A stretch of DNA of 14,239 nt from an uncultured Bacteroidales bacterium (lineage in GTDB: Bacteria; Bacteroidota; Bacteroidia; Bacteroidales; UBA932), in the NCBI GenBank assembly GCA_946408295.1, contig CAMJRT010000012.1, positions 1-14,239 on the forward strand, given 5' to 3'. A program made the translations under genes and the position numbers. Positions 2 to 14,239 of this stretch are shown here, in pieces. Within the stretch, counting starts at the first letter, position 1. The number at the start of each line of letters is the position of its first letter. The notes beneath the pieces were generated by a model. It worked only from the letters and a program-made list of their open reading frames with translations. It did no database searches and had not been told where the DNA came from.

Positions 2-562
2 ACCGCGATTTTCGCGAATGACCGGGCCTATCGGTATCCGTTCAACCAAGGCATTTTCATCGATATTTTTCCGATAGACCATGTTCCGGCCGATTCTCGG
101 GAGCGCAGTGGTTTCTACAAGGAACTGACCCGTTTGGGTAACCGCGCGTGGCAGTGGCGGAATATGATTCATTTCTATCGGCCCAAGAAGGGAAAGGGGG
201 TTGTGAAGCGCGTGGTTTATGGCTTGAAGCATTTCTACTACAAGTATTTCTTCAAAGGAGGCTATCGGTATTACTTGGATAAGCATCACGAGATGATTAC
301 GAAATATGATAGTGAAGAAACCGGCTGGGTGGGAGAGTCTGTCATATATCCTTTGGGGAGGCATTTGTGGCGGTCAGAGTGGTTCCGAGAGACAGTTAAT
401 GTCCCGTTTGAGATGCTGCAAGTTCCGGTTCCCGTTGGTTATGAAGAGTGTCTTTCCGCATCTTTCGGTTCAGACTGGAGAACGCCGAAACATGCTCCCA
501 CAATGCACGGAGATACTTTTTTCGATCCGGAAAAGCCCTACACTTTCCATTTGAACCAGTAG
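2..562 (+). CDS. LicD-family phosphotransferase, 5'-truncated by window edge
   Basis: This is the C-terminal 186 residues of a LicD-family protein; its start lies left of the window. LicD proteins (related to the fukutins) transfer a phospho-group such as phosphocholine or a phospho-alditol from a CDP carrier to a sugar. The visible part opens with the family motif NQGIFIDIFPID at residues 15-26, and continues through a basic stretch (FYRPKKGKG) and PLGRHLW, to a C-terminal GYEECLSASFGSDW segment and a typical HGDTFFDPEKPY end. All of these recur in the next gene, so the two are tandem paralogs. The nucleotidyltransferase-fold motif (DDDID) would lie upstream and cannot be checked. The reading frame is open from base 2; the internal TTG at 134 is not a start because homology continues upstream of it. 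Family certain, transferred group unknown. Confidence 0.9.
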   Translation, partial: TAIFANDRAYRYPFNQGIFIDIFPIDHVPADSRERSGFYKELTRLGNRAWQWRNMIHFYRPKKGKGVVKRVVYGLKHFYYKYFFKGGYRYYLDKHHEMITKYDSEETGWVGESVIYPLGRHLWRSEWFRETVNVPFEMLQVPVPVGYEECLSASFGSDWRTPKHAPTMHGDTFFDPEKPYTFHLNQ

Positions 563-594
563 ATTCCGACTTATACACATACACCAATTGGCCC

Positions 595-1530
595 ATGGTA
601 CCGCTTCGTTTGCAGATCGATGATTCCTTCTTCCTGCCGGAAGAGAGGGATGGGTATCTGGTTTCCGCAGAGATGAAAAGAATCTGGGCCGTAGAGTTGG
701 ACCTCCTTCATGCATTCGCGCAGGTTTGCGAGAAATACCATTTACAATGGTTTGCCCATGCCGGAACGATGCTGGGAGCGGTGCGTCATCACGGGTTCAT
801 TCCCTGGGATGATGATATCGATATCGTCATGCCCAGGAAGGATTATGACAGGCTGTGCGAGGTTGGCCCGTCCGTTTTTTCCGCTCCGTATTTTTTCCAG
901 AATGAATCGACGGACCGTTTTTTCTGCCGTACATTCTCCCGGCTTAGAAACAGCGATACGACGGGTATCCAGATTTCAGAAAGGGAGTATCGCTATCCTT
1001 TCAACCAAGGTATTTTCATCGACATTTTCCCTTATGACAATGTGTCGGACAACGATGAGGAATTAAGGGACGATATCCGGAAAATGGAAGCGCTTCTGAA
1101 CAAGAGATGGTATTTCAGAAAACTGGTCTATTTCTACCGACCTCTCAAGGGGAGAGGGCCGGTCAGGAGATTGGGCTATTTCGTCCGGCACCTTTGGTAC
1201 AAGTACGTGAATAAAACCGCCGGTGATTATCAGGTTTTGCTATATGAGCACCAGCGGTTGCTGACTGCACACAATAATGAGGAAACCAAACGTGTCGGTG
1301 AAATGCTCGTCCTTCCTTTGGGACGCCATATCTGGAATAAAGAGTGGTTTGAAGGAAAGGTCGATATGCCGTTTGAGATGATCAGCGTTCCCGTTCCCAT
1401 CCATTATGAAGAGTGCCTGGCTTCCTCCTTTGGGAATGACTGGCGGATTCCCAGGCAAGTTGGAAATTGCCATGGCCAGGTCTTTTACGACGTTGACCGT
1501 CCTTATACTGATTATTTAAACAAACCATAA
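595..1530 (+). CDS. LicD-family phosphotransferase (second copy)
   Basis: A complete LicD-family protein of 311 residues, predicted to move a phospho-group from a CDP donor to the nascent glycan at the cytoplasmic face. It carries the N-terminal VSAEMKRIWAVELDLL helix (23-38), the nucleotidyltransferase-like motif AGTMLGAVRHHG (56-67) with the metal-binding PWDDDIDI (70-77), and NQGIFIDIFPYD (137-148). The C-terminal half closely matches the truncated gene before it (FYRP-KG-G, PLGRH-W, PFEM--VPVP, YEECL-SSFG-DW). I chose ATG 595 because the LicD region begins soon after it and it lies 32 bases past the upstream stop; the frame stays open back to 448, but that extension overlaps the upstream coding region and looks unlike LicD. 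The next gene starts two bases after the stop. Substrate not determinable. Confidence 0.93.
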   Translation: MVPLRLQIDDSFFLPEERDGYLVSAEMKRIWAVELDLLHAFAQVCEKYHLQWFAHAGTMLGAVRHHGFIPWDDDIDIVMPRKDYDRLCEVGPSVFSAPYFFQNESTDRFFCRTFSRLRNSDTTGIQISEREYRYPFNQGIFIDIFPYDNVSDNDEELRDDIRKMEALLNKRWYFRKLVYFYRPLKGRGPVRRLGYFVRHLWYKYVNKTAGDYQVLLYEHQRLLTAHNNEETKRVGEMLVLPLGRHIWNKEWFEGKVDMPFEMISVPVPIHYEECLASSFGNDWRIPRQVGNCHGQVFYDVDRPYTDYLNKP

Positions 1531-1988: not shown

Positions 1989-2704
1989 AGAATGCGATTG
2001 TAACCGGGGCCACCCGTGGAATTGGTCTTGCGACGGCGGAGATGCTGTTGCAGGAGGGATATCATGTTACGGTGACCTATGCTTATGACGAGGATTCCGT
2101 ACAGCCCTGCAAAGAAAGGCTGGGCGCCGTCAGCGATGCGTTTGAAATCTTGTGGGTGGATCAGACCAGCAAGCAGGAAATGCATGATTTCGCCATGAAG
2201 ATGCGGGAGAAAGGGCATATCGACTGTATCGTCTGCAATGCCGGCATGACTTTGCGGAAAGGGCTGCAGGAAATCGATGACGAAGGTTGGGAACGCGTGA
2301 TGCAGATGAATGTCAACAGCAATGTTTATCTAATCCGTGACTTGTTCGATGTCATTCCTCACGGTTCCCGGATAGTTTTTACCGGTTCCCTGATGGGTAT
2401 TCTCCCGCATAGCGTTTCCTTGTCGTACGGTGTGACAAAGGCGGCCGTCCTGGCTCTCGCCAAGAACTTGGTGAAGTTCTTTGAGGACACTGATACGACG
2501 GTCAATGCCATCGCTCCCGGATTCGTGGAGACGGAATGGCAGAAGAACAAGCCGCAGGAAATCAGGAATAACATCTACAACAAGACAGCCATCAAGCGTT
2601 TTGCCGATCCCAAGGAGATTGCGGATGCAGTGAGATTTTGTATCAACAACGCGTTTGTAAATGGGAGTATTATTGAGGTGAGCGGTGGTTATTGTTTCAA
2701 ATGA
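1985..2704 (+). CDS. Short-chain dehydrogenase/reductase (FabG-like)
   Basis: A 239-residue classical SDR: an NAD(P)-dependent oxidoreductase with a Rossmann fold. Visible motifs are the cofactor loop TGATRGIG (7-14), CNAG (84-87), the structural/catalytic Asn in MNVNSN (109), the catalytic Ser in FTGSLMG (135) and YGVTK (Tyr148, Lys152), then the usual APGFVETEW and VNGSIIEVSGGY end. All catalytic residues are present. Resemblance to FabG is generic and does not set a substrate. It overlaps the cytidylyltransferase stop by ATGA at 1985-1988 and the acyltransferase start by ATGA at 2701-2704. The context suggests it reduces a keto-sugar phosphate, or a CDP-bound product, on the way to the group that LicD transfers, by analogy with the cytidylyltransferase/reductase pairs of ribitol-phosphate teichoic acids (TarI/TarJ). 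That role is inference. Confidence 0.9.
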   Translation: MKNAIVTGATRGIGLATAEMLLQEGYHVTVTYAYDEDSVQPCKERLGAVSDAFEILWVDQTSKQEMHDFAMKMREKGHIDCIVCNAGMTLRKGLQEIDDEGWERVMQMNVNSNVYLIRDLFDVIPHGSRIVFTGSLMGILPHSVSLSYGVTKAAVLALAKNLVKFFEDTDTTVNAIAPGFVETEWQKNKPQEIRNNIYNKTAIKRFADPKEIADAVRFCINNAFVNGSIIEVSGGYCFK

Positions 2705-3804
2705 AATCGGAGAGAGGTTTTAGTAGGTCTCTTTTAATCAACTCTGAGGAAGTGGTTGTTTCTGGCAGTGAGGTCCCTACCCAGACGGAGCGAAGCAGAA
2801 ATCGCAATCCGGTATATGATATTATGAAAGGGATTGGTATTATCTTAATGCTGATCGGTCATATACCACCAGGACAGCGGTTGTTCCACTTTATTTATTC
2901 ATTCCACATGCCTCTGTTTTTTATCGTAGCAGGTTTTTTTGCGAGTACGACGAAGTTGAGTTGGAGTGTAATAAAGAAATATGCATCTCGGTTGTTGCTT
3001 CCTTTTCTAGTGACAATGTTGGCAATCATTATTCTTTCACCGATGCGCTATCTTTTCGATGGAAATTTCAATTTTGCGATTGCTCAAGTCCTCTCGCTTT
3101 TCTGGGCAGGTGATGCACTTCCGACCCGATTTGGCAAATTATCGTTAGAAGCAGTGTGGTTTTTGGTCGCTTTGTTTTGGGCAAAGTGTTTCTTTCAAAG
3201 TTTGGGCTATTTTGTGAATAAGTCTTTTACTCGATACAAAGACGAGATAGTACTTGCCCTTTGTTTTGCCATCTCTGGTGGAGCGATCTTTTTACACAAA
3301 CTTTTTCCTTTTGTTCCGTGGGGGCTTATGAGGGGGTTGTCCGCTGTTATGTTTCTGGCAATAGGATGGTATGCAAAACGACATCCGATTCCTATATACG
3401 TTTGGATTGCATTCGTCTTCTGTTGGCTTATCGCTCTACGATTCGGATTATTGGACATGTCGACATATACATATAAGATTTTTCCAATGGAGGTTTTAGG
3501 TGCGGTAGGTGCTACTTGGCTCGTTTATTTGTTGAGCAGAGTCATTCAGAATCATACTGTTTTAACATGTAAACTGCTTCGCTGGTTCGGTATGAATTCT
3601 CTTTTGATATTGTGTGTAAATACCCTGGATAGAAGGTCAGTTTTGGTGCGCGTCATCAAAGGAATCCTGGATGTCCATCCTTCAGGATTGTATTTGAATA
3701 CTTTGATTCATTACTCTATCGGGTTGACTTTGGTCATTTTTTTAATCAGCATTCCATATACAAAACGATTGTTTGGTGCTGTAAGATGGAGCGATTTGGG
3801 ATAA
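2701..3804 (+). CDS. Membrane acyltransferase, acyltransferase_3 family (O-acetylase-like)
   Basis: A 367-residue polytopic membrane protein of the acyltransferase_3 family, resembling fucose-4-O-acetylase-type enzymes that transfer acetyl or other acyl groups to sugars. After a polar leader of about 38 residues comes the signature YDIMKGIGI (39-47) with the expected His54 (MLIGH), then FIYSFHMPLFFIVAGFF (64-80) including His69. About ten hydrophobic segments follow across the rest of the protein. ATG 2701 gives the ATGA overlap with the SDR stop. Base composition is unlike the neighbours: 25 G+C of 60 in 2821-2880 against 35 of 60 in 4921-4980, and codons favour A/T third positions and T-runs. 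It therefore looks like a later acquisition that decorates the polymer. The family is secure; the acyl group and acceptor are not known. Confidence 0.88.
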   Translation: MKSERGFSRSLLINSEEVVVSGSEVPTQTERSRNRNPVYDIMKGIGIILMLIGHIPPGQRLFHFIYSFHMPLFFIVAGFFASTTKLSWSVIKKYASRLLLPFLVTMLAIIILSPMRYLFDGNFNFAIAQVLSLFWAGDALPTRFGKLSLEAVWFLVALFWAKCFFQSLGYFVNKSFTRYKDEIVLALCFAISGGAIFLHKLFPFVPWGLMRGLSAVMFLAIGWYAKRHPIPIYVWIAFVFCWLIALRFGLLDMSTYTYKIFPMEVLGAVGATWLVYLLSRVIQNHTVLTCKLLRWFGMNSLLILCVNTLDRRSVLVRVIKGILDVHPSGLYLNTLIHYSIGLTLVIFLISIPYTKRLFGAVRWSDLG

Positions 3805-3822: not shown

Positions 3823-4749
3823 ATGATGAACCTTGAGGAAGAGATTCGTAGAGGATATACGATTACTGTTGAGATGAAAAGGGTTTGGAAGGTCCAGATG
3901 GACCTTCTGAAGAAACTTCTGGCCGTTTGCGAGAAGCATCATCTGAGGATATGGGCAGAAGGGGGAACTTTACTAGGCACTGTGCGGGATCATGGATATA
4001 TTCCCTGGGACGATGACATCGACATGGCCATGCTTCGGGATGATTATGACAGACTGGTTGCCATCGCCCCTGAGGAGTTCACACATCCTTATTTCTTCCA
4101 ATGTGGTCTGACGGAAAAGGTCTATCCGAGGGGACATGCGCAAGTCAGGATGGATGGGACGGCTGCCATCAGTCATTCTGACGCTTTCATCCATACGCAC
4201 CAGGGCATTTTCATCGACATATTCCCTTATGATGCCGTGCCGGACAATGCGGAAGAGAAAAAGATGCTGATCAAAAAGCGAAACAAGCAGATGGCCTTTC
4301 TCCTGCATCTCTCATCCAACGATCCCCTTCATCCCTTCCGGACGCTGGGAATGATGCTGAGACGCCCGTTCTTCCCGCATTATTTTCGCCGATTCGAGGA
4401 CCTGCTCAGGTCCAATTCCTTGTCCGGGAACCAGCATGTTGCATGCCTTGGGTTTACGGATGACCTGAAGCACTATGAGCGTGACAAGAACTGGTATGCT
4501 GAGACATTGTACTTTCCGTTCGAGGACATGATGATGCCCGTTCCGTCAGGATATGACCTGATTCTCAGCACCCAGTACGGTGATTATATGGTTCCGCGCC
4601 AGGCCCCGACCTTGCATGGCGGCTTCTGGAAACTGGATCCCGAAAAGTCCTATGAATCGTTCATTCCTGAATTGCGTGTTTACTGCAAGCAACTTAGGAA
4701 GGCGAGAATCAAATCCCGCATCAACAAGTTTCTCAAAAGAATCAAATAA
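3823..4749 (+). CDS. LicD-family phosphotransferase (third, divergent copy)
   Basis: A complete LicD-family protein of 308 residues. It shows the same N-terminal pattern as the second copy (VEMKRVWKVQMDLL, 16-29), the motif EGGTLLGTVRDHG (46-58) with PWDDDIDM (61-68), and HQGIFIDIFPYD (126-137). The middle differs: the FYRP-KG-G block of the first two copies is absent and a different basic stretch (LRRPFFPHYFRRF) takes its place. The end keeps FPFEDMMMPVP, YGDYMVPRQAPTLHG and DPEKSY, followed by a basic tail (KARIKSRINKFLKRIK) that could hold it at the membrane. The divergence suggests a different acceptor or donor from the tandem pair. ATG 3823 is followed at once by a second ATG (3826); either could start the protein. 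The gene follows an 18-base gap after the acyltransferase. Confidence 0.93.
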   Translation: MMNLEEEIRRGYTITVEMKRVWKVQMDLLKKLLAVCEKHHLRIWAEGGTLLGTVRDHGYIPWDDDIDMAMLRDDYDRLVAIAPEEFTHPYFFQCGLTEKVYPRGHAQVRMDGTAAISHSDAFIHTHQGIFIDIFPYDAVPDNAEEKKMLIKKRNKQMAFLLHLSSNDPLHPFRTLGMMLRRPFFPHYFRRFEDLLRSNSLSGNQHVACLGFTDDLKHYERDKNWYAETLYFPFEDMMMPVPSGYDLILSTQYGDYMVPRQAPTLHGGFWKLDPEKSYESFIPELRVYCKQLRKARIKSRINKFLKRIK

Positions 4750-6929: not shown

Positions 6930-8237
6930 ATGGCAACTGCGATTGAATTCAACCATGTTGGTAAGCAGTATAGATTAGGACTTGTCTCCACCAAGACATT
7001 GTCTCACGACCTCGACCGTTGGTGGCAGACCGCAGTCTTGAAGAAGGAGGATCCCTATCTGAAGATCGGAGAGACGAACGACCGTTCCACGTTCGGTAAC
7101 AGCGAGTATGTGTGGGCGCTTCGGGATATTGATTTCAAGATTGAACAGGGAGACGTTGTCGGAATCATCGGCAAGAACGGCGCAGGGAAGAGCACGCTCC
7201 TGAAACTTCTTTCCAAGGTTACCGGACCGACCGTGGGGACAATCCGGGCCAAAGGCCGGATTGGTTCTCTTCTGGAGGTGGGTACGGGCTTCCATTCCGA
7301 AATGACCGGACGGGAGAACATCTATATGAACGGTGCTATCCTCGGCATGACGAAGGCGGACATTGGCCGCAGGTTGGATGACATTATCAGTTTCAGTGGC
7401 TGTGAGCGTTATATCGACACCCCTGTGAAGCGCTATTCCAGCGGTATGAAGGTTCGTCTCGGTTTCGCTGTCGCCGCTTTCATGGAGCCGGAAATCCTCG
7501 TGGTCGATGAGGTTCTGGCCGTGGGTGATGCCGAGTTCCAGAAGAAGGCCATCGGAAAAATGCAGGATGTGAGCCGTGGTGAAGGCCGTACGGTCTTGTT
7601 CGTGAGCCATAACATGACATCCATCCGGGCGCTTTGCAAGACGGGTGTCCTGCTGGAGAATGGAATGACCAAGCAGATAGGTGAAGTCAACGAGATCGTC
7701 AGCCAGTATTTGCTGGATAATGCGATTTTGGTTGGCGACTTGCAAAAAGTGGTGCGGGCGGACATGCAGAAGTTCAGACCGTATAAGTATGACGGTGCGA
7801 CACATCAACTTGAAATCGTTGAAATTGAGCGGTTGACTCCCTATAAGATTGATTCCAATGATTCTCCGGAGTTCCGTGTAAGGGTTAAACGGACTGAGCC
7901 GGCTATCAAAAAGATACAACTCGTCACGCTGGTCGATGACCTGAAGAGCCAGCAGAGAGTCGGATTGACTTGCAGTGATGAAATCTGGATCGGCGACCAG
8001 CCCGAAGAATTTGAACTGCATGTCAAGTTGAATCATCTGAATCTTACCCGGGGCATCTATATGATGAACTTCTGGGTGTGCCTGGGCGACATTCACAGTA
8101 ATCTGACCATCTATGATGCCGTGTACAATTCGCTGACTTTCCAGGTTGCCAAGGTCAATGACAAGATAGTGACGATGTGGTCGAAAGACTGGGGGTTCAA
8201 CTATTTCAGCGGTTGTGAGACGGAGTTAGTCAAGTAG
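6930..8237 (+). CDS. wzt: Polysaccharide ABC exporter ATP-binding protein with C-terminal glycan-binding-type domain (Wzt-like)
   Basis: A 435-residue ATPase subunit of an ABC exporter for capsule, O-antigen or teichoic-acid-like polymers. The nucleotide-binding domain (about 1-260) has Walker A GKNGAGKST (81-89), the family segment LLEVGTGFHSEMTGRENIY (114-132), signature YSSGMKVRLGFA (169-180), Walker B ILVVDE (189-194) and the H-loop SHNM (His227). The LLEVGTGFH..TGRENI segment is typical of Wzt/TagH/KpsT-type exporters. Residues 270-435 form a separate, probably beta-rich domain like the Wzt C-terminal domain that recognises the capped end of an O-antigen chain in other bacteria. No ABC-2 permease (Wzm) is present in the window. 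The gene starts 30 bases after glf and ends 17 bases before the WecF-like gene. Confidence 0.94.
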   Translation: MATAIEFNHVGKQYRLGLVSTKTLSHDLDRWWQTAVLKKEDPYLKIGETNDRSTFGNSEYVWALRDIDFKIEQGDVVGIIGKNGAGKSTLLKLLSKVTGPTVGTIRAKGRIGSLLEVGTGFHSEMTGRENIYMNGAILGMTKADIGRRLDDIISFSGCERYIDTPVKRYSSGMKVRLGFAVAAFMEPEILVVDEVLAVGDAEFQKKAIGKMQDVSRGEGRTVLFVSHNMTSIRALCKTGVLLENGMTKQIGEVNEIVSQYLLDNAILVGDLQKVVRADMQKFRPYKYDGATHQLEIVEIERLTPYKIDSNDSPEFRVRVKRTEPAIKKIQLVTLVDDLKSQQRVGLTCSDEIWIGDQPEEFELHVKLNHLNLTRGIYMMNFWVCLGDIHSNLTIYDAVYNSLTFQVAKVNDKIVTMWSKDWGFNYFSGCETELVK

Positions 8238-8254: not shown

Positions 8255-9364
8255 ATGATTCTGCATTTACTGACAGACGAGAAGTTTACGGATTATGTAA
8301 TCGAACAGTTCTCCGAACCGGAGATGCGGTCGGAGTTTGTCCTGATTCCATCCAATGGCGCGTTGCATCTGGTAAAGAGAATCGATCAATGCCGGGTAAT
8401 AAGGGCACGTTCCAAAGCGTTCAAGGATCTTCTGGATGGATTGGGGGCCTATTCGGGGCTTGTTCTTCATGGATTGTTCTGGTCCAGGTGGCAAACCCCT
8501 GTTCTAAAAGCGGTTCCGAACCATGTCAAAGTGGCGTGGGTATGCTGGGGAGGAGAGATATACAGTTGCCGGGAAAGCGGTTATACCTTCAGGGCACCTT
8601 ATACCAGGCTTTACTTGAAAGTCCGTCATCTGTTCAAACGCGATAGTGACAAACGTTCTTTCGATTGGGAAGTTCCCAAGGAACTGTATAAACGGCTGGA
8701 TTATTGTACCACCAGTATAGAAGAGGAATTTGAGTATGCGAAATCGTTCTTCCAGAACGATATGCGGCATGTCTGGTACACGTATTATTCCATTGAGGAG
8801 ACAGTCGGTCCGTTGATGGAAGAACGCTGTCACGGCATTAACGTCTTGATGGGAAATTCTGCCGCGGTCTGTAACAACCATCTGGACATGATGTTTCTGT
8901 TGGCGAAGAAAAAATATCGTTCATCAATCAAAGGCCGGAAACTGGTCACTCCTCTCAGTTATGGAGAAGCCTGGATGCGGTCTATCGTGGACAGAGTCGG
9001 GCGTTTTTTGTTCAAGGACAGTTTTAAACCTTTGCGCCGTTTCTTGCCACGGGATAAATACAATGCTTTGATGCTGGATTGTTCCACCATGATTATCGGT
9101 GCGACGGAACCTTTGGCGCAGGGGAACATCATTACGGCATTGTGGCTTGGAATGCGGGTCTATCTGAGCGAGAAGAGCATGTCCTTCCATTTTTTCAATC
9201 GAATCGGTGCCGTAGTCTTTTCTTTGGAGAAGGATTTGCCTCAGTTCCTCTTCTCTCCATTGAGTAATGAGGAAGTCAGTATTAACAGAGAAGTCCTTTC
9301 CCGTGTCTATGGGAAGGCACATGTGATGCAGGGTGCCAGGGACCTGATACAGTCGTTGAGTTGA
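8255..9364 (+). CDS. WecF-like (GT56) 4-acetamido-fucose-type glycosyltransferase
   Basis: A 369-residue protein resembling WecF/RffT (GT56), which in enterobacteria transfers Fuc4NAc from its TDP donor to undecaprenyl-linked lipid II during enterobacterial common antigen synthesis. Matching features are WVCWGGEIY (95-103), the stretch VLMGNSAAVCNNHLDM (197-212, resembling the GNSxxxxNxH pattern of the family), VTPLSYGE (231-238) and the C-terminal QGNIITALWLGMRVYLSE (289-306). Length is close to E. coli WecF (359). The link is supported by a clear RffA/WecE transaminase two genes on, which makes the TDP-Fuc4N donor precursor in that pathway. Its stop codon abuts the start of the ATP-grasp gene with no spacer, so the two are probably translated together. 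The acceptor, and whether the sugar is N-acetylated or otherwise acylated, are open. Confidence 0.8.
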   Translation: MILHLLTDEKFTDYVIEQFSEPEMRSEFVLIPSNGALHLVKRIDQCRVIRARSKAFKDLLDGLGAYSGLVLHGLFWSRWQTPVLKAVPNHVKVAWVCWGGEIYSCRESGYTFRAPYTRLYLKVRHLFKRDSDKRSFDWEVPKELYKRLDYCTTSIEEEFEYAKSFFQNDMRHVWYTYYSIEETVGPLMEERCHGINVLMGNSAAVCNNHLDMMFLLAKKKYRSSIKGRKLVTPLSYGEAWMRSIVDRVGRFLFKDSFKPLRRFLPRDKYNALMLDCSTMIIGATEPLAQGNIITALWLGMRVYLSEKSMSFHFFNRIGAVVFSLEKDLPQFLFSPLSNEEVSINREVLSRVYGKAHVMQGARDLIQSLS

Positions 9365-10609
9365 ATGCGCGTGTCCGAATTGAATAAAATACTCATCTTG
9401 GGTGCAGGAGAAGGGCAGGTCTCGCTGATTCTTCGGGCGAAGGAAGCCGGCTGGTACACGGTGGTCGTTTCTCCCCAGGGGCATTATCCCGGCTTTGAAT
9501 TGGCAGACCGTTGCTGCTATCTGGATATTTCTGATGCCGAAGCGGTTCTCGGCCTGGCGCGGGAAATGAAGGTCCAGGCCATCGCTACCGACCAGACGGA
9601 TATTTCGATGCCGACAGTTGTGACTGTAGCAAAGGAGTTGGGGCTGCCCTGCATCGACTGTGAGAACATCTACCATTTCCAGTTCAAATCCTTGATGCGG
9701 GAGATCTGCCATCGGCAGGGAATTGCGACCATCGTTTTTTGCGTGACCGACAAGTTGGAGGAAGCCCAGGCTTTCTTCTTGTCTATTCCAAACGGGAAGG
9801 CGATTGTCAAGCCGGTGGATTCCCAAGGCAGCCGCGGTATCCACAAGGTCTGCTCGCCGGACGGGATTCCGGATGCTTACGCTTCCGCTCTGAAGTATTC
9901 ACGGAGTGGAAGAGTCATCATCGAACAGTTCATCGACGGGCATGAGATAGAGGTTGATACGGCGATGAAGGACGGGAAAACGGTATGTACGCTGATCGGT
10001 GATGTCTATAATTTCGGTTTCGAGGACACCTTCTCGGCCTATGAGCGTATTTATCCGGCCAGGATGGAACCCGAACTTGAGAAAAAGGTCCGTGCCTATA
10101 ACGAATCCGTCCTGAAAGCCTTGGGTTTGACGACCGGTTGGACCCATGGCGAGTACATTGTGACGGAAGAAGGGGATGTCTATCTGCTGGAAGTCGGATT
10201 GCGGGGAGGTGGCAATTTCATAGGCTCTGACATTTTGCGTGACAGGTTGGGGGTAGGGACGGATGAGATGGCCTTTCTGACCGCCATCGGCGACGATTCA
10301 TTCTATAATAGGATGGGTCCCCGGGAAGGATATTGCGCGTACAAGTGTTTCTACCTGCCGGAAGGTGAAGTGAAAACGGTTGATATCGACGAAGGTTTGT
10401 TGACCCGGCCGTTTGTGCTGAGGCATAATCTGGACGGCCTGTGTGTCGGTAGGCAGATTGGTAAAGCGACGGATAAGTCCAGTCGTTTTACCGTGGTAGT
10501 AAAGGCGGAGACAGCGGATGAATTGAGAAGGATCCTCGATGATATCGAGAACCGGATCCATGTGGGTGTCCTTACGGCTTCGGGAGTGCAGGGGGCTATT
10601 TGGAAATGA
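9365..10609 (+). CDS. ATP-grasp carboxylate-amine ligase
   Basis: A 414-residue ATP-grasp enzyme; such enzymes activate a carboxylate as an acyl phosphate and join it to an amine or other nucleophile. The N-terminal domain begins KILILGAGEGQ (8-18). The ATP-binding core contains IVKPVDSQGSRGIHKV (147-162), the glycine-rich lid, then EQFIDGHEIEVDTA (187-200), and HGEYIVTEEGDVYLLEVGLR (261-280), whose Glu263 and Glu276 are the likely metal ligands. The end of the family motif reads EVGLRGGG rather than the common E-N-P-R-GG. It is immediately downstream of the WecF-like gene and upstream of the Fuc4N transaminase, and no WecD acetyltransferase is seen. It is therefore a candidate for attaching an amino acid or other acyl acid to the 4-amino group. 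Family secure; that reaction is inferred. Confidence 0.88.
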   Translation: MRVSELNKILILGAGEGQVSLILRAKEAGWYTVVVSPQGHYPGFELADRCCYLDISDAEAVLGLAREMKVQAIATDQTDISMPTVVTVAKELGLPCIDCENIYHFQFKSLMREICHRQGIATIVFCVTDKLEEAQAFFLSIPNGKAIVKPVDSQGSRGIHKVCSPDGIPDAYASALKYSRSGRVIIEQFIDGHEIEVDTAMKDGKTVCTLIGDVYNFGFEDTFSAYERIYPARMEPELEKKVRAYNESVLKALGLTTGWTHGEYIVTEEGDVYLLEVGLRGGGNFIGSDILRDRLGVGTDEMAFLTAIGDDSFYNRMGPREGYCAYKCFYLPEGEVKTVDIDEGLLTRPFVLRHNLDGLCVGRQIGKATDKSSRFTVVVKAETADELRRILDDIENRIHVGVLTASGVQGAIWK

Positions 10610-10750
10610 ATTTGCTTGGATAAAAGCAAGAAGGACAAGGAAGCCTTGGAGAGAGTGTCTCATGGATTGATTATAATTCCATTGCATCCATAATCAAGTG
10701 TATGGAGAATACGTAAGTTATGATAGAGATCTGAACACGCAATTGTAGAA
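10610..10750 (+). promoter_or_regulatory. 141-base intergenic region with several inverted repeats
   Basis: This is the largest gene-free gap in the window and no credible reading frame is seen in it. It contains three potential hairpins: TTGCTT/AAGCAA (10612-10617 with 10624-10629, loop 6), CAAGG/CCTTG (10636-10640 with 10644-10648, loop 3) and TTGATTAT/ATAATCAA (10667-10674 with 10690-10697, loop 15). An alternative pairing TGGAT/ATCCA (10663-10667 with 10686-10690) shares bases with the third and would exclude it. None is followed by a T-run, so a simple intrinsic terminator is unlikely. I find no good match to the Bacteroidota promoter (TTTG then TAnnTTTG). It could be a processing site, an attenuator or an old rearrangement junction. 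Confidence 0.4.
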
Positions 10751-11890
10751 ATGATTGATTTTAACCGACCCCATTTTACGGGGCATGAACTGAAATACAT
10801 CCAGCAGGCCGTCGTAGATAATCACAGGATATCCGGCAATGGTCTGTTCACGAAACAGTGCCAGCATTTCTTCGAAGAGAAATACGGGTTCAAGAAGTGC
10901 CTTCTTACGACCAGTTGCACCGATGCGCTGGAGATGGCCGCCATCCTCTGTGATATCCAGCCGGGAGACGAGGTGATCGTCCCCAGTTACACGTTTGTGT
11001 CCTCGGCGCTTGCGTTCGTCCGTGCGGGAGCGAAGATTGTCTTTGCGGACAGCACGGGACGGAATCCGAACATCGATGCCGACCAGATTGAAGGGCTCAT
11101 TACAGACCGCACGAAGGTGATTGTTCCCGTTCATTATGCCGGCGTGGCCTGTGATATGGATCGGATCATGGAGATTGCCCATCGGCATGGGCTGTTGGTT
11201 GTGGAAGACGCCGCTCAGGCCATAGACTCTTTTTATAAAGGGCGGCCGCTGGGAAGCATCGGCCATCTGGCTGCATTTTCCTTCCATGAGACCAAGAATA
11301 TCATCTCCGGTGAGGGCGGTCTTCTGGCGGTCAATGATGAACGGTTCATCCGACGTGCCGAGATTATCTGGGAGAAAGGTACGAACCGGGCAGAGTTCTT
11401 CCGGGGGGAGGTGAATAAGTATGGCTGGTGCGATACGGGCAGTTCATTCCTTCCAAGCGAAGTCATTGCCGCTTTCCTGTGGGCTCAGTTGGAGGAGATG
11501 ACGGCTATCCAGGATAAGCGCAAATCGTTGTGGAATCAATATTACGGTCTTCTGAAACCCCTTTCGGAAAAGCGGTTCTTCCGTCTTCCCGACATCCCGG
11601 AATTCGCCACGAACAATGCCCACATGTTCTATCTCGTATGCAATTCCTTTGAAGAGCGTACTGCGTTGATCAAATGGCTGAAAGAGCATGATGTTCAGGC
11701 GGTCTTCCATTATCTGAGTCTGCATTCGAGCCCGTATTATCAGGACAGGCATGATGGCCGTGACCTGCCGAATTGTGATTTTTACGCCGATTGCCTGGTC
11801 CGTCTGCCCATGTATTATGATTTGACAGAAACGGATGTGGACGAGATATGTCATCTCATCGAAGCGTTCTATAACAGTGATAACCAATAA
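10751..11890 (+). CDS. rffA: dTDP-4-amino-4,6-dideoxygalactose transaminase (RffA/WecE)
   Basis: A 379-residue pyridoxal-phosphate enzyme of the DegT/DnrJ/EryC1/StrS family, and specifically of the RffA/WecE type, which converts TDP-4-keto-6-deoxy-glucose to TDP-4-amino-4,6-dideoxy-galactose (TDP-Fuc4N) using glutamate. From memory of E. coli RffA the match runs end to end: LLTTSCTDALEMAA (51-64), IQPGDEVIVPSYTFVS (69-84), VIVPVHYAGVACDMD (123-137), VVEDAAQA (150-157, with Asp153 for the PLP nitrogen), FSFHETKN (176-183, Lys182 as the Schiff-base lysine), EKGTNRAEFFRGEVNKYGW and NAHMFYL. Length equals the family. The TDP-sugar precursors (RmlA/RmlB) are not in the window and may be elsewhere in the genome. 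The PP-loop gene starts 9 bases downstream. Of all the genes here, this one gives the firmest substrate prediction. Confidence 0.95.
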   Translation: MIDFNRPHFTGHELKYIQQAVVDNHRISGNGLFTKQCQHFFEEKYGFKKCLLTTSCTDALEMAAILCDIQPGDEVIVPSYTFVSSALAFVRAGAKIVFADSTGRNPNIDADQIEGLITDRTKVIVPVHYAGVACDMDRIMEIAHRHGLLVVEDAAQAIDSFYKGRPLGSIGHLAAFSFHETKNIISGEGGLLAVNDERFIRRAEIIWEKGTNRAEFFRGEVNKYGWCDTGSSFLPSEVIAAFLWAQLEEMTAIQDKRKSLWNQYYGLLKPLSEKRFFRLPDIPEFATNNAHMFYLVCNSFEERTALIKWLKEHDVQAVFHYLSLHSSPYYQDRHDGRDLPNCDFYADCLVRLPMYYDLTETDVDEICHLIEAFYNSDNQ

Positions 11891-11899
11891 AGCCCAGCG

Positions 11900-12661
11900 A
11901 TGAAAAAAGTCAACATTTTGTGGACAGGCGGACTGGACTCCACCTATAGAGTTCTGGAATTGTCCATGTCGGAGGTTACGATTCAGCCCTATTATCTGGC
12001 CAATGTCAACCCCTCGACGCAACATGAGATCAATGCGATTTTACGAAACACGGAGGCCATATTGAGCCGGCCGGAAACAAAGTGCACCTTGCTCCCCCTC
12101 ATCGTTGTACATACTTCTCTGATTAAACCCAATGCGGAGATTACGGCAGCCTGGGAGAGATTGCATGCTTTATCCCGTCTGGGATCGCAATATGATTGGA
12201 TTGCCAGGTTTGCCGACCAATACAACCTGACGCTTGAACTTGGCATTGAAAAGGATGATAAGGAGAGTACGATTGTCAGATGTTTATCCCAATCCGGTGG
12301 GTATAGTATCCTGGACAATGAAGAAGTGGTCGTTTCGGAAGAAGGGACTGAAGACGCAAAGTTGGTATTCAAGAATATGAGATTCCCTCTTCCCTTGTTC
12401 AATATGACGAAGCAGGACGAGATTGAACAGTTCAAACGGTGGGGAGCCACCAAAGTCCTGAATCGGACCTGGTTTTGCTACAGGCCGGTGAATGGGAAAC
12501 CTTGCGGGCTCTGTGATCCTTGCCAGACCTATATCGAGGTCGGTCTCGAGAACCGTATTCCTAAGAATAGACGCAGATTATACTATCTGCGGAAGAATCA
12601 TAATAAGTTATTCAATTTCATACGCAACCTTAAGCATAGAATAAGGTCGCTTTTCAAATAA
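11900..12661 (+). CDS. QueC-like PP-loop ATPase with zinc-binding cysteines
   Basis: A 253-residue PP-loop (adenine-nucleotide alpha hydrolase fold) protein resembling QueC/ExsB, which converts 7-carboxy-7-deazaguanine to the nitrile preQ0 through ATP-dependent amidation and dehydration. The PP-loop is ILWTGGLDST (6-15). Near the C-terminus, RTWFCYRPVNGKPCGLCDPC (189-208) has Cys193, 202, 205 and 208, the same C-x8-C-x2-C-x2-C spacing and CGxCDxC form as the zinc site of QueC. A basic C-terminal tail (KNRRRLYYLRKNHNK...) extends past the usual end. The rest is diverged from housekeeping QueC, and no other queuosine gene (queD, queE, folE) is near. It lies between the Fuc4N transaminase and a TupA-like ligase, so a carboxylate-activating step on a sugar or its substituent is more likely than tRNA modification. 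Substrate unknown. Confidence 0.82.
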   Translation: MKKVNILWTGGLDSTYRVLELSMSEVTIQPYYLANVNPSTQHEINAILRNTEAILSRPETKCTLLPLIVVHTSLIKPNAEITAAWERLHALSRLGSQYDWIARFADQYNLTLELGIEKDDKESTIVRCLSQSGGYSILDNEEVVVSEEGTEDAKLVFKNMRFPLPLFNMTKQDEIEQFKRWGATKVLNRTWFCYRPVNGKPCGLCDPCQTYIEVGLENRIPKNRRRLYYLRKNHNKLFNFIRNLKHRIRSLFK

Positions 12662-12670
12662 TGACTGCCT

Positions 12671-13573
12671 ATGGTTTTTTACAAAAAGATCCCCCGCTTT
12701 ATCAAGCGTCAGTTCCGCAAGTTGGAGTATAACTTGTCCCATGCCATCAGCGGATCCTGGTTTGACAGTGTCCGATGCCGTCAAATCACAGGGAAAAGAA
12801 TGAACTGGCGAAATCCGGAAGGAATCACACAGAAATTATTATGGCTCAATCGCTTCTGGCAGCCTCAGATGAAGGTCGATTGCGCGGATAAATACAGGTC
12901 GAAGTTATATCTGGCAAAAATCGGATTGAATGAACTCGTCGTCCCGCTTCTGGGGGTATGGAAGACTCCTGAAGAAATCGATTTCGATAAACTTCCCAAA
13001 CAGTTTGTACTGAAAACAAACCACGGGTGCGGAACGAATATCATCTGCTTCGATAAGGACGATTTGGATATAAAGGCGACGAGAGACAAGTTGCGCGCCT
13101 GGATGGACATCGACTATGGGAAATTGTATAATGAGCGGCATTATAGTAAAATACAGAAGTGCATCATCGCCGAGGAGTTGTTGCATACCGGGGCTTTCCC
13201 CGTCGATTACAAGATACATTGTCTTAACGGAGAGCCATACTGTTTCTTGTTTTATCCTAAGCATACGGAAACGACATGCGAACGGATTTCTTTCTCCCTG
13301 GATTGGCAAAGAAGATATTATATAAAAGGAGAGGAGAAGTTCCATTACAATATTCCATGTCCCGATAATCTGGCTAAAATGTTGGAATATGCCAGGACGC
13401 TTTCCAAGCCATTTCCCTATGTTAGGATTGACTTTTATGAGTCCGACGGGCGGCTTTATTTGGGAGAATTCACATTTACCCCTTTCAGCAACATTATGGA
13501 CTATGTTTATAAGCCGGAGGTTTGCCAAGAAATGGGTGAGAGATTAGTATTACCTTTAACAACCGAGAAATGA
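12671..13573 (+). CDS. TupA-like ATP-grasp amidoligase
   Basis: A 300-residue protein of the TupA-like ATP-grasp family, named after TupA of the teichuronopeptide locus of alkaliphilic Bacillus and thought to form amide bonds between sugar acids or amino sugars and amino acids. Family features are MNWRNPEGITQKLLWLN (44-60), CADKYRSKLYLAKIGL (71-86), LPKQFVLKTNHGCGTNI (108-124, ATP-binding strand and lid), IIAEELL (165-171), DYKIHCLNGEPYCFLFY (179-195) and VRIDFYESDGRLYLGEFTF (251-269) with Glu266 a likely metal ligand. The basic N-terminal stretch has no clear transmembrane segment. ATG 12671 is the start of the only frame with this homology; a nearer ATG at 12661 opens a different frame of 23 codons. 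The last four bases overlap the next gene (ATGA). It is the second ATP-grasp enzyme in the locus and unrelated in subfamily to the first. Its acyl donor is unknown. Confidence 0.85.
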   Translation: MVFYKKIPRFIKRQFRKLEYNLSHAISGSWFDSVRCRQITGKRMNWRNPEGITQKLLWLNRFWQPQMKVDCADKYRSKLYLAKIGLNELVVPLLGVWKTPEEIDFDKLPKQFVLKTNHGCGTNIICFDKDDLDIKATRDKLRAWMDIDYGKLYNERHYSKIQKCIIAEELLHTGAFPVDYKIHCLNGEPYCFLFYPKHTETTCERISFSLDWQRRYYIKGEEKFHYNIPCPDNLAKMLEYARTLSKPFPYVRIDFYESDGRLYLGEFTFTPFSNIMDYVYKPEVCQEMGERLVLPLTTEK

Positions 13574-14239
13574 GCACAGCACCCATCGTCATTTTTGCTT
13601 ATAACCGCCCTTCTCACTTGAAAAGGACGATTGAGGCATTATCCAAAAATGAATTGGCTGAGGACAGCGTTCTTTATGTCTTCTGTGACGGGCCGAAGGC
13701 CAATGCAAACGAAAAACAACTGGCTCTTGTGGCAGAAGCAAGAGCCGTTGCCAAAAATGCTTCCGGGTTCAAGGAAATTCATGTGGTTGAGCGGGAAAGG
13801 AACTATGGTCTTGCCGACAATATCGTCGGTGCAGTCACTACCATTGTCAACCAATATGGGCGGGTAATCACGCTGGAAGATGACATCATCTCATCCACCG
13901 GCTTCCTGAAGTATATGAACGACGCGCTGGAATTGTATAAGGATGATCCTGCCGTCATGCATATTTCCGGTTATATGTTTCCCCACAAGGAAAAACTTCC
14001 GGAAACCTTCTTTTTCGAGGTCCCTTATCCCACCGGTGGATGGGCAACGTGGAAAAGAGCGTGGGATTTCTACAACAATGACATCGATTATCTTTACGAT
14101 TATTGGAGCAAGAGGTGGAAAGAGTTCAACAAGTTCGGGGACAATTATCTGCAACTGCAACTCGAGGCGAACAAGAACGGGACCCTCTATACCTGGTTCA
14201 TCAAATGGCATGCGGTGCTGTTAGAGCGAGGAGGATTAA
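13570..14239 (+). CDS. Glycosyltransferase, GT-A fold, 3'-truncated by window edge
   Basis: The first 223 residues of a glycosyltransferase; the frame is still open at the window end. It begins APIVIFAYNRPSHLKRTIEAL (4-24), a form shared by GT2-like enzymes and relatives of N-acetylglucosaminyltransferase I. It then has VFCDGPK (37-43), ERNYGLADNI (76-85) and the metal-binding TLEDDIISS (101-109). Downstream are HISGYMFP (131-138), GGWATWKRAWDFY (156-168) and KWHAVLLERGG (212-222), all of which recur in Bacteroidota capsule transferases of this group. The ATG lies within the stop codon of the TupA-like gene (ATGA at 13570-13573), suggesting translational coupling. The remaining C-terminal part, including the likely acceptor region, is missing, so neither donor nor linkage can be suggested. 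Confidence 0.9.
   Translation, partial: MSTAPIVIFAYNRPSHLKRTIEALSKNELAEDSVLYVFCDGPKANANEKQLALVAEARAVAKNASGFKEIHVVERERNYGLADNIVGAVTTIVNQYGRVITLEDDIISSTGFLKYMNDALELYKDDPAVMHISGYMFPHKEKLPETFFFEVPYPTGGWATWKRAWDFYNNDIDYLYDYWSKRWKEFNKFGDNYLQLQLEANKNGTLYTWFIKWHAVLLERGGL

Follow-up and report, generated by a model that had tools for sequence, protein, structure and literature searches.

A 14,239-nucleotide stretch of contig CAMJRT010000012.1 from an uncultured Bacteroidales bacterium, here called the window, carries a polysaccharide locus that encodes, one after another, an ATP-grasp ligase, the sugar transaminase RffA, a QueC-like PP-loop enzyme and a TupA-like ATP-grasp protein. We found that these four enzymes split into two pairs: the ATP-grasp ligase goes with a WecF-like protein and RffA, and the QueC-like protein with the TupA-like protein. 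The latter partnership is the most novel part of the analysis. Judged by its motifs, the QueC-like protein is a distinct subfamily within the QueC family, and its gene often accompanies amidoligases in polysaccharide loci, yet stands without them in more than half. The chance that these genes together serve amide formation in a capsule or surface-polysaccharide locus, acting in two steps, seems to us about even.

The sequence-only reading of this DNA had placed the four enzymes between 9365 and 13573. Their open reading frames (ORFs) lie exactly where it put them, all on the plus strand, and Pfam and NCBIfam scans return the same four identities, most strongly for RffA; the two ATP-grasp ligases, which that reading called unrelated, match different Pfam families. 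The span does hold the four genes, but it omits the upstream WecF-like gene, which belongs with them. The features of this region are as follows.

8255..9364, plus strand: WecF-like glycosyltransferase (divergent GT56), its stop abutting the ATP-grasp start; NF002756 119.7 bits against a cut-off of 457, PF07429 23.1 against 25
9365..10609, plus strand: ATP-grasp ligase, L-amino-acid-ligase type, 414 amino acids
10751..11890, plus strand: RffA/WecE, dTDP-4-amino-4,6-dideoxygalactose transaminase, 379 amino acids; NF008687 559.7 bits against 375, TIGR02379 508.7 against 434.85
11900..12661, plus strand: QueC-like PP-loop enzyme, polysaccharide-locus subfamily, 253 amino acids
11924..11941, plus strand: TGGLDS PP-loop of the QueC-like enzyme, residues 9-14; W8, T9, G10, G11, D13 and S14 invariant in 33 sequences
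12476..12523, plus strand: four-Cys (predicted zinc) site of the QueC-like enzyme, C193-x8-C202-x2-C205-x2-C208; none of the four Cys varies in 33 sequences, and a profile comparison pairs the site with its canonical QueC counterpart
12671..13573, plus strand: TupA-like ATP-grasp amidoligase, 300 amino acids; PF14305 130.5 bits against 25

The QueC-like protein exceeds the Pfam cut-off for QueC (PF06508, 31.4 bits against 22) over residues 157-210 only, and falls far below the canonical-QueC equivalog TIGR00364 (24.5 against 150.3). The earlier call of a QueC-like PP-loop ATPase stands at the level of the family, but with a partial match and outside the canonical enzyme. A protein search returned 124 relatives, of which 120 were listed; among those, 33 are near full length at 60-93% identity, and the remainder are one 74% fragment and others at 32-47% identity. 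The 33 aligned members share a signature consisting of TGGxDS (33), GxQY (32), WFCxxP (32) and C(x)8-9CxxCxxC (33), while YxQxHxxE, VPxRN and YPDC, which PMC13329287 presents as QueC's catalytic signature, each occur in none of them. Conversely, 12 ORFs at canonical QueC hits in the same genomes, picked by position so that one or more may be the wrong ORF, carry SGGxDS in 10, YxQxHxxE in 10, VPxRN in 9 and YPDC in 9, and TGGxDS, GxQY and WFCxxP in none. The six canonical sequences of the profile comparison and of a first motif check were picked by SGGxDS; the 12-ORF count repeats the result without that choice. The family thus resembles canonical QueC (7-cyano-7-deazaguanine synthase) in its PP-loop, its four-Cys site and K171, which stands opposite a lysine in a profile alignment covering the C-terminal zinc-site segment, and differs from it in the first serine of SGGxDS, replaced to give TGGxDS, and in the three absent motifs.

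Structural comparison finds the QueC fold among the nearest. The predicted model has a mean predicted local distance difference test score (pLDDT) of 95.2, and its nearest solved structures by Z are Cap9 (13.7; 164 residues, root-mean-square deviation 3.0), QueC (10.4 and 10.1), YcfA (10.0) and QatC (9.8). Searching the PDB by sequence produced no useful result for either the QueC-like or the TupA-like protein, and only two QueC models match the QueC-like protein up to E=1 in NCBIfam, a library that does not necessarily include the WbpG model TIGR03573. Fold and gene partnership together make it somewhat likelier than otherwise that the protein carries out amide or amide-like chemistry.

Scanning genome contigs for QueC-like relatives turned up 293 coding stretches. 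We kept 79 loci, in none of which identity to the window protein exceeds 45%; close relatives were sought in genomes and none was found, the best of the 79 loci reaching 45%. By record title the loci belong to Bacteroidota, Bacillota, Pseudomonadota, Spirochaetota, archaeal Methanobrevibacter and others. Within one family, 3 of 399 genomes carry the gene, two of the three being already known. At E<=1e-5, searches of 50,697 phage records and 72,556 plasmid records found no relative, and two scans of viral contigs came back empty.

The partnership with amidoligases emerges from the neighbourhoods of these genes. Among 95 direct neighbours (3 short ORFs of 98 left out; loci L005, L017, L040 and L066 without an anchor), Pfam names UDP-glucose/GDP-mannose dehydrogenases in 6, ATPgrasp_ST in 6, ATPgrasp_TupA in 3, Mur ligases in 3 and sodium:solute symporters in 5. 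Of the 79 loci, 22 have TupA and 13 have ATPgrasp_ST, with 5 having both; PGA_cap occurs in 6. Two of the loci with both a TupA and a QueC-like gene come from Bifidobacterium magnum LMG 11591 (L024), where the TupA ORF at 9100 immediately precedes the QueC-like ORF at 9962, and from Marinobacter sp. X15-166B (L013), where the two genes lie on opposite strands. TupA or ATPgrasp_ST is present in 27 of the 70 loci of at least 10 kb and in 0 of 38 control stretches around initiating sugar transferases of the same genomes (Fisher p 1e-6); the TupA and ATPgrasp_ST profiles behind these two sets of counts were seeded from the case loci, a dependence from which the counts by Pfam model are free. The controls came from 40 of the 48 genomes in which an initiating transferase was present, one being dropped for holding a QueC-like gene and one for being shorter than 10 kb. 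In a recheck free of that seeding, the 38 controls contain no TupA or ATPgrasp_ST inside, with two TupA and one ATPgrasp_ST within 12 kb outside.

Supporting this association, in 50 genomes with a QueC-like gene 23 of 51 TupA hits by Pfam model lie within 10 kb of that gene, against 0.35 expected, as do 9 of 33 ATPgrasp_ST hits, against 0.24 expected; both expectations assume uniform placement, but polysaccharide genes cluster, so that the control loci offer the fairer comparison. The 23 TupA hits fall in 18 genomes, pieces of one gene being partly counted separately, and the ATPgrasp_ST count excludes three rows that clear the cut-off only together with their neighbours. Counted from the other side, 28 of 61 QueC-like hits, in 23 of the 50 genomes, have TupA or ATPgrasp_ST within 10 kb.

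Other candidate partners fared less well. UDP-sugar dehydrogenases are not enriched (11 of 70 QueC-like loci, 7 of 38 controls), and an enrichment of PGA_cap is unsupported (6 of 70 against 1 of 38). A hidden obligatory partner was sought by clustering 1186 ORFs; this gave 16 other communities of at least five loci, none of whose Pfam-named part pointed to one. Mur ligases beside the gene are few (3 of the 95 neighbours, 2 loci by motif); a Mur-ligase-type protein, a further amide-forming family, directly precedes the QueC-like gene at L028:8274-9746 (by Pfam) and L059:8274-9746 (by motif only). A sodium:solute symporter gene adjoins it at, for example, L031:1335-2930. Loci L001, L002 and L007 each have three or four QueC-like ORFs, some with low scores, so some may be pieces; L002 has three QueC-like and two ATPgrasp_ST genes. 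When the 112 neighbour families of the 95 proteins are ranked by frequency, neither CD-NTase nor QatA/QatD is among the top 25, rarer families not being listed.

The TupA-like protein clearly exceeds the gathering score of ATPgrasp_TupA. By analogy, amidoligase activity is quite likely: in Campylobacter jejuni, the C-terminal TupA-like ATP-grasp domain of Cj1438 forms the amide of glucuronic acid with serinol phosphate or ethanolamine phosphate, according to the accessible text of PMC11800379. The sequence-only reading had tied TupA to peptide-modified teichuronic acid; that teichuronopeptide link is in print (PMC8153356, in the text accessible to us), but Cj1438 is the better precedent. A literature search on 'TupA-like ATPgrasp' found no paper.

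For the other pair, RffA matches DegT/DnrJ/EryC1 with 281 bits in Pfam and exceeds both equivalog cut-offs. The ATP-grasp ligase scores 49 bits for ATP-grasp_4 (PF13535; cut-off 27) and 48.4 for Dala_Dala_lig_C (cut-off 24), and its fold resembles solved L-amino acid ligases. K108, K149, E187, E276 and R280, which we take to be catalytic, are invariant in 32 sequences. Weak matches at E<=1e-10, with 24-29% identity, occur in 2 of 8 genomes, and the gene's DNA has no match in E. coli genomes. The WecF-like protein misses the Pfam and NCBIfam cut-offs (PF07429, NF002756), and on its sequence we regard it as a divergent relative and do not call it a WecF member. It has 480 relatives at E<=0.001; some of the 120 listed bear the PF07429 label and some do not, and the family extends beyond that model. 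It probably transfers a sugar of the Fuc4N type.

Evidence that the ATP-grasp ligase and the WecF-like protein belong together is indirect. When metagenome contigs of identical size were matched between lists of the best 120 relatives per search (118 of 120 rows for the WecF-like protein), 21 sizes were common to both lists, against 0.75 expected from a null in which sizes were shifted by up to 10%; for one of the three lists behind the matching, only the 7991 candidates with most words in common were scored. Three sizes, 32739, 20847 and 29146, of anonymous metagenome contigs, are common to the QueC-like, ATP-grasp and WecF-like lists. RffA occurs with a ligase-type ATP-grasp in an independent operon (L191:3496-10413), which also encodes a RidA-family protein, an Amidohydro_2 protein and a class I aminotransferase. 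The L191 gene set recalls aromatic-acid catabolism and, speculatively, may make the acid that is attached.

The four families had been expected to co-occur as one cluster. When this was checked, a general four-gene cassette had to be rejected: the window-type ATP-grasp and the WecF-like protein are found in 0 of 79 QueC-like loci, and RffA above 250 bits in 0 of the 70 that are at least 10 kb long, with only weak DegT-type matches to RffA (79 to 124 bits) in 7 of the 79. Likewise, none of 20 loci around Bacteroidia RffA, taken from 20 of 99 genomes, contains QueC-like, TupA or WecF-like genes, 28 of the 78 RffA neighbours being left out of this family scan.

The enzymes are set in what, from its gene content, is a polysaccharide locus, as had been supposed. 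The remaining features of the window are listed here.

448..1530, plus strand: LicD-family phosphotransferase; PF04991 137.2 bits
1533..1988, plus strand: glycerol-3-phosphate-cytidylyltransferase-like protein; TIGR01518 112 bits, under the cut-off of 165.4
2692..3804: Acyl_transf_3 protein (Pfam)
3823..4749, plus strand: LicD-family phosphotransferase; PF04991 131.9 bits
5712..6899, plus strand: Glf, UDP-galactopyranose mutase; TIGR00031 386.3 bits against 303.75; true start probably some codons inside
6930..8237, plus strand: Wzt-like ATP-binding cassette (ABC) transporter ATPase (polymer export); ABC_tran 76.9 bits, Wzt_C 26.0, under the cut-off of 30.4
13570..14238, plus strand: glycosyltransferase, its start overlapping the TupA stop and its end running off the window; Glycos_transf_2 24.3 bits against 23.3

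Pfam and NCBIfam scans name further glycosyltransferases among the surrounding genes. Because Glf, the Wzt-like ATPase, two LicD proteins and the cytidylyltransferase-like protein occur together, the locus probably makes a surface polysaccharide that contains phosphate and galactofuranose and leaves the cell by an ABC transporter. The two LicD genes and the cytidylyltransferase-like gene (448-1988, 3823-4749) suggest a teichoic-acid-like phosphopolymer. A partial ORF at 2-562 looks LicD-like by eye, and no Shine-Dalgarno-like stretch was seen by eye ahead of most starts, which fits Bacteroidota.

We propose a plausible two-step mechanism. It builds on the family-level identities of the genes, on the conservation of ATP-grasp and PP-loop residues and on the two partnerships, the first of them seen indirectly; from these we infer the acyl group on the amino sugar, the QueC-like substrate and the order of steps. 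In the first step, RffA, whose activity is established at family level, would produce dTDP-4-amino-4,6-dideoxygalactose (Fuc4N). The ATP-grasp ligase would turn a carboxylate, in all likelihood that of an amino acid, into an acyl phosphate and couple it to the free 4-amino group, replacing acetylation by RffC, and the WecF-like enzyme would then move the N-acylated sugar. In the second step, the QueC-like enzyme would adenylate a carboxylate, which ammonia or an amine would convert into an amide or related group, as its fold and gene partnership suggest, and the TupA-like ligase, by homology, would form another amide, either on a carboxylate of a sugar or on the residue already attached. The resulting polymer would carry amide groups, probably contain phosphate, and leave through the ABC transporter.

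The enterobacterial common antigen pathway runs RffA-RffC-WecF. The window resembles it in having RffA and a WecF-like transferase, and differs in that an ATP-grasp ligase sits where the acetyltransferase is expected and in that the WecF-like protein lies far under the equivalog cut-offs; a Pfam scan of 14 ORFs of the window found no GNAT or hexapeptide acyltransferase, though an Acyl_transf_3 protein is encoded at 2692-3804. We consider it reasonably probable, on sequence grounds, that the ATP-grasp ligase N-acylates Fuc4N in place of RffC. The suggestion that the locus makes an amide-modified glycan unlike this antigen kept its footing in the strong RffA, the adjoining ligase-type ATP-grasp, the lack of such an acyltransferase among those ORFs and the Cj1438 precedent for TupA, but lost the four-gene cluster; an amide-bearing glycan is plausible.

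Several observations weigh against the two-step model. No ammonia-supplying partner is named in the window, and the reaction of the QueC-like protein is not readable from its sequence because the canonical substrate motifs are absent. By Foldseek E-value, QueC ranks first (1.7e-05) and Cap9 second (3.2e-05). As 49 of the 79 loci have neither TupA nor ATPgrasp_ST, the gene can evidently stand without amidoligases. LAL_C2, a domain of L-amino acid ligases, stays under its cut-off in the ATP-grasp ligase (20.4 bits against 29.4). At E<=1e-40 the window ATP-grasp was found in 0 of 395 Bacteroidia genomes, a search without a positive control, in 0 of 2 genomes of a further scan, and in 1 of 70 genomes of a related family; only 1 of the 20 Bacteroidia RffA loci has an ATP-grasp of the window type, most of those examined being without one. 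Besides its indirectness, the matching of contig sizes gave no link for more distant QueC-like relatives (1 and 2 common sizes against 0.51 and 0.66 expected).

Several rival explanations were weighed. The QueC-like enzyme might make a plain carboxamide (uronamide) or an amidine with ammonia, like the first half-reaction of QueC and WbpG-type enzymes, while TupA acts on an unrelated residue. The retained PP-loop and four-Cys site, the QueC fold among the nearest structures and the dehydrogenases in 6 of 95 direct neighbours are consistent with this reaction; dehydrogenase genes are, however, no commoner than in controls, and the Pfam scan of 14 window ORFs names no glutamine amidotransferase; we regard this reading as rather unlikely. 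A little less probable still is that the ATP-grasp ligase makes a dipeptide or other precursor and does not act on Fuc4N, which would be acetylated by an enzyme encoded elsewhere. Its solved fold relatives BL00235 (3vot), RizA (4wd3) and BacD (3vmm) do make dipeptides, such an ATP-grasp is rare in RffA loci, and an acetylating enzyme could sit outside the 14,239 nucleotides searched. Those relatives are 17-19% identical to the window protein, whose proposed acceptor is a sugar nucleotide amine. Against this reading, the ATP-grasp gene lies between the WecF-like gene and rffA and recurs with WecF-like relatives and, in L191, with RffA.

That the locus is a mosaic, its unrelated tailoring genes brought together by recombination with no joint pathway, would explain why none of the QueC-like or RffA loci we looked at was found to combine all four families; each pair nonetheless recurs above simple expectation, and we think this improbable. 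Finally, identity with queuosine QueC or anti-phage Cap9/QatC, already disfavoured, seems very improbable indeed. The Pfam family is shared, the nearest folds are QueC and Cap9, PADLOC gives weak QueC matches (19.2 bits; 28 of 33 relatives at E<=0.001), and canonical QueC was not found at E<=1e-20 in 26 of the 50 QueC-like genomes, some of which may be incomplete. Against these stand the TIGR00364 score, the motifs present in most canonical loci and in none of the 33 relatives, a separate canonical QueC in the other 24 genomes and the absence of relatives from the phage and plasmid collections. Most likely, the QueC-like protein is neither a queuosine enzyme nor a plain defence gene. That this subfamily of several phyla, marked by TGGxDS, GxQY, WFCxxP and four Cys, is a glycan-modifying, amide-forming enzyme working with TupA or ATPgrasp_ST amidoligases is a tentative proposal, to which we give slightly less than an even chance.

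Known systems offer partial parallels, here taken from the accessible text of the sources cited. Cj1438 likewise places a TupA-like ATP-grasp in a capsule locus and forms a sugar-carboxylate amide, but its amidoligase is fused to a GT2 domain and no QueC-like partner is named there (PMC11800379). In Cap9 of the type IV cyclic oligonucleotide-based antiphage signaling system (CBASS) and in QatC, the QueC fold is reused for ATP-dependent conjugation (PMC13329287, PMC13279940), Cap9 attaching a deazaguanine N-terminally to its partner protein (PMC13329287). The window protein resembles their fold and differs in its polysaccharide context from their protein N-terminus and deazaguanine substrates; Cap9 also keeps variants of YxQ and YPDC, which the window family does not have (PMC13329287, PMC13279940). 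For the first pair, the surface-carbohydrate operons of CA_C2195 neighbourhoods combine an ATP-grasp amino acyl ligase with aminosugar enzymes, and transfer of the acyl group onto an amino sugar was proposed; their other genes differ, and the available text mentions neither QueC nor PP-loop (PMC4000134). The same limit applies to a 2026 survey of PF06508, in which the only surface-glycan member named is the WbpG group and no word begins with polysaccharide, capsul or glycosyl (PMC13329287). In the literature searched on QueC-like proteins with amide, polysaccharide or ATP-grasp, we found no description of a polysaccharide QueC branch partnered with TupA or ATPgrasp_ST. ATP-grasp amino acyl ligases in surface-carbohydrate operons have thus been proposed already; what is new is this branch and its partnership, within a known family and not as a new kind of system.

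Should the proposal hold, QueC chemistry would be reused for surface polysaccharides, besides deazaguanine synthesis and protein conjugation, and a scaffold that has been studied in depth would gain a new chemistry. Amino acids and amino alcohols in amide linkage alter the charge and antigenicity of bacterial polysaccharides, and to our knowledge few enzymes that attach them are known. A QueC branch travelling with amidoligases would provide a sequence handle for finding amide-modified glycans.

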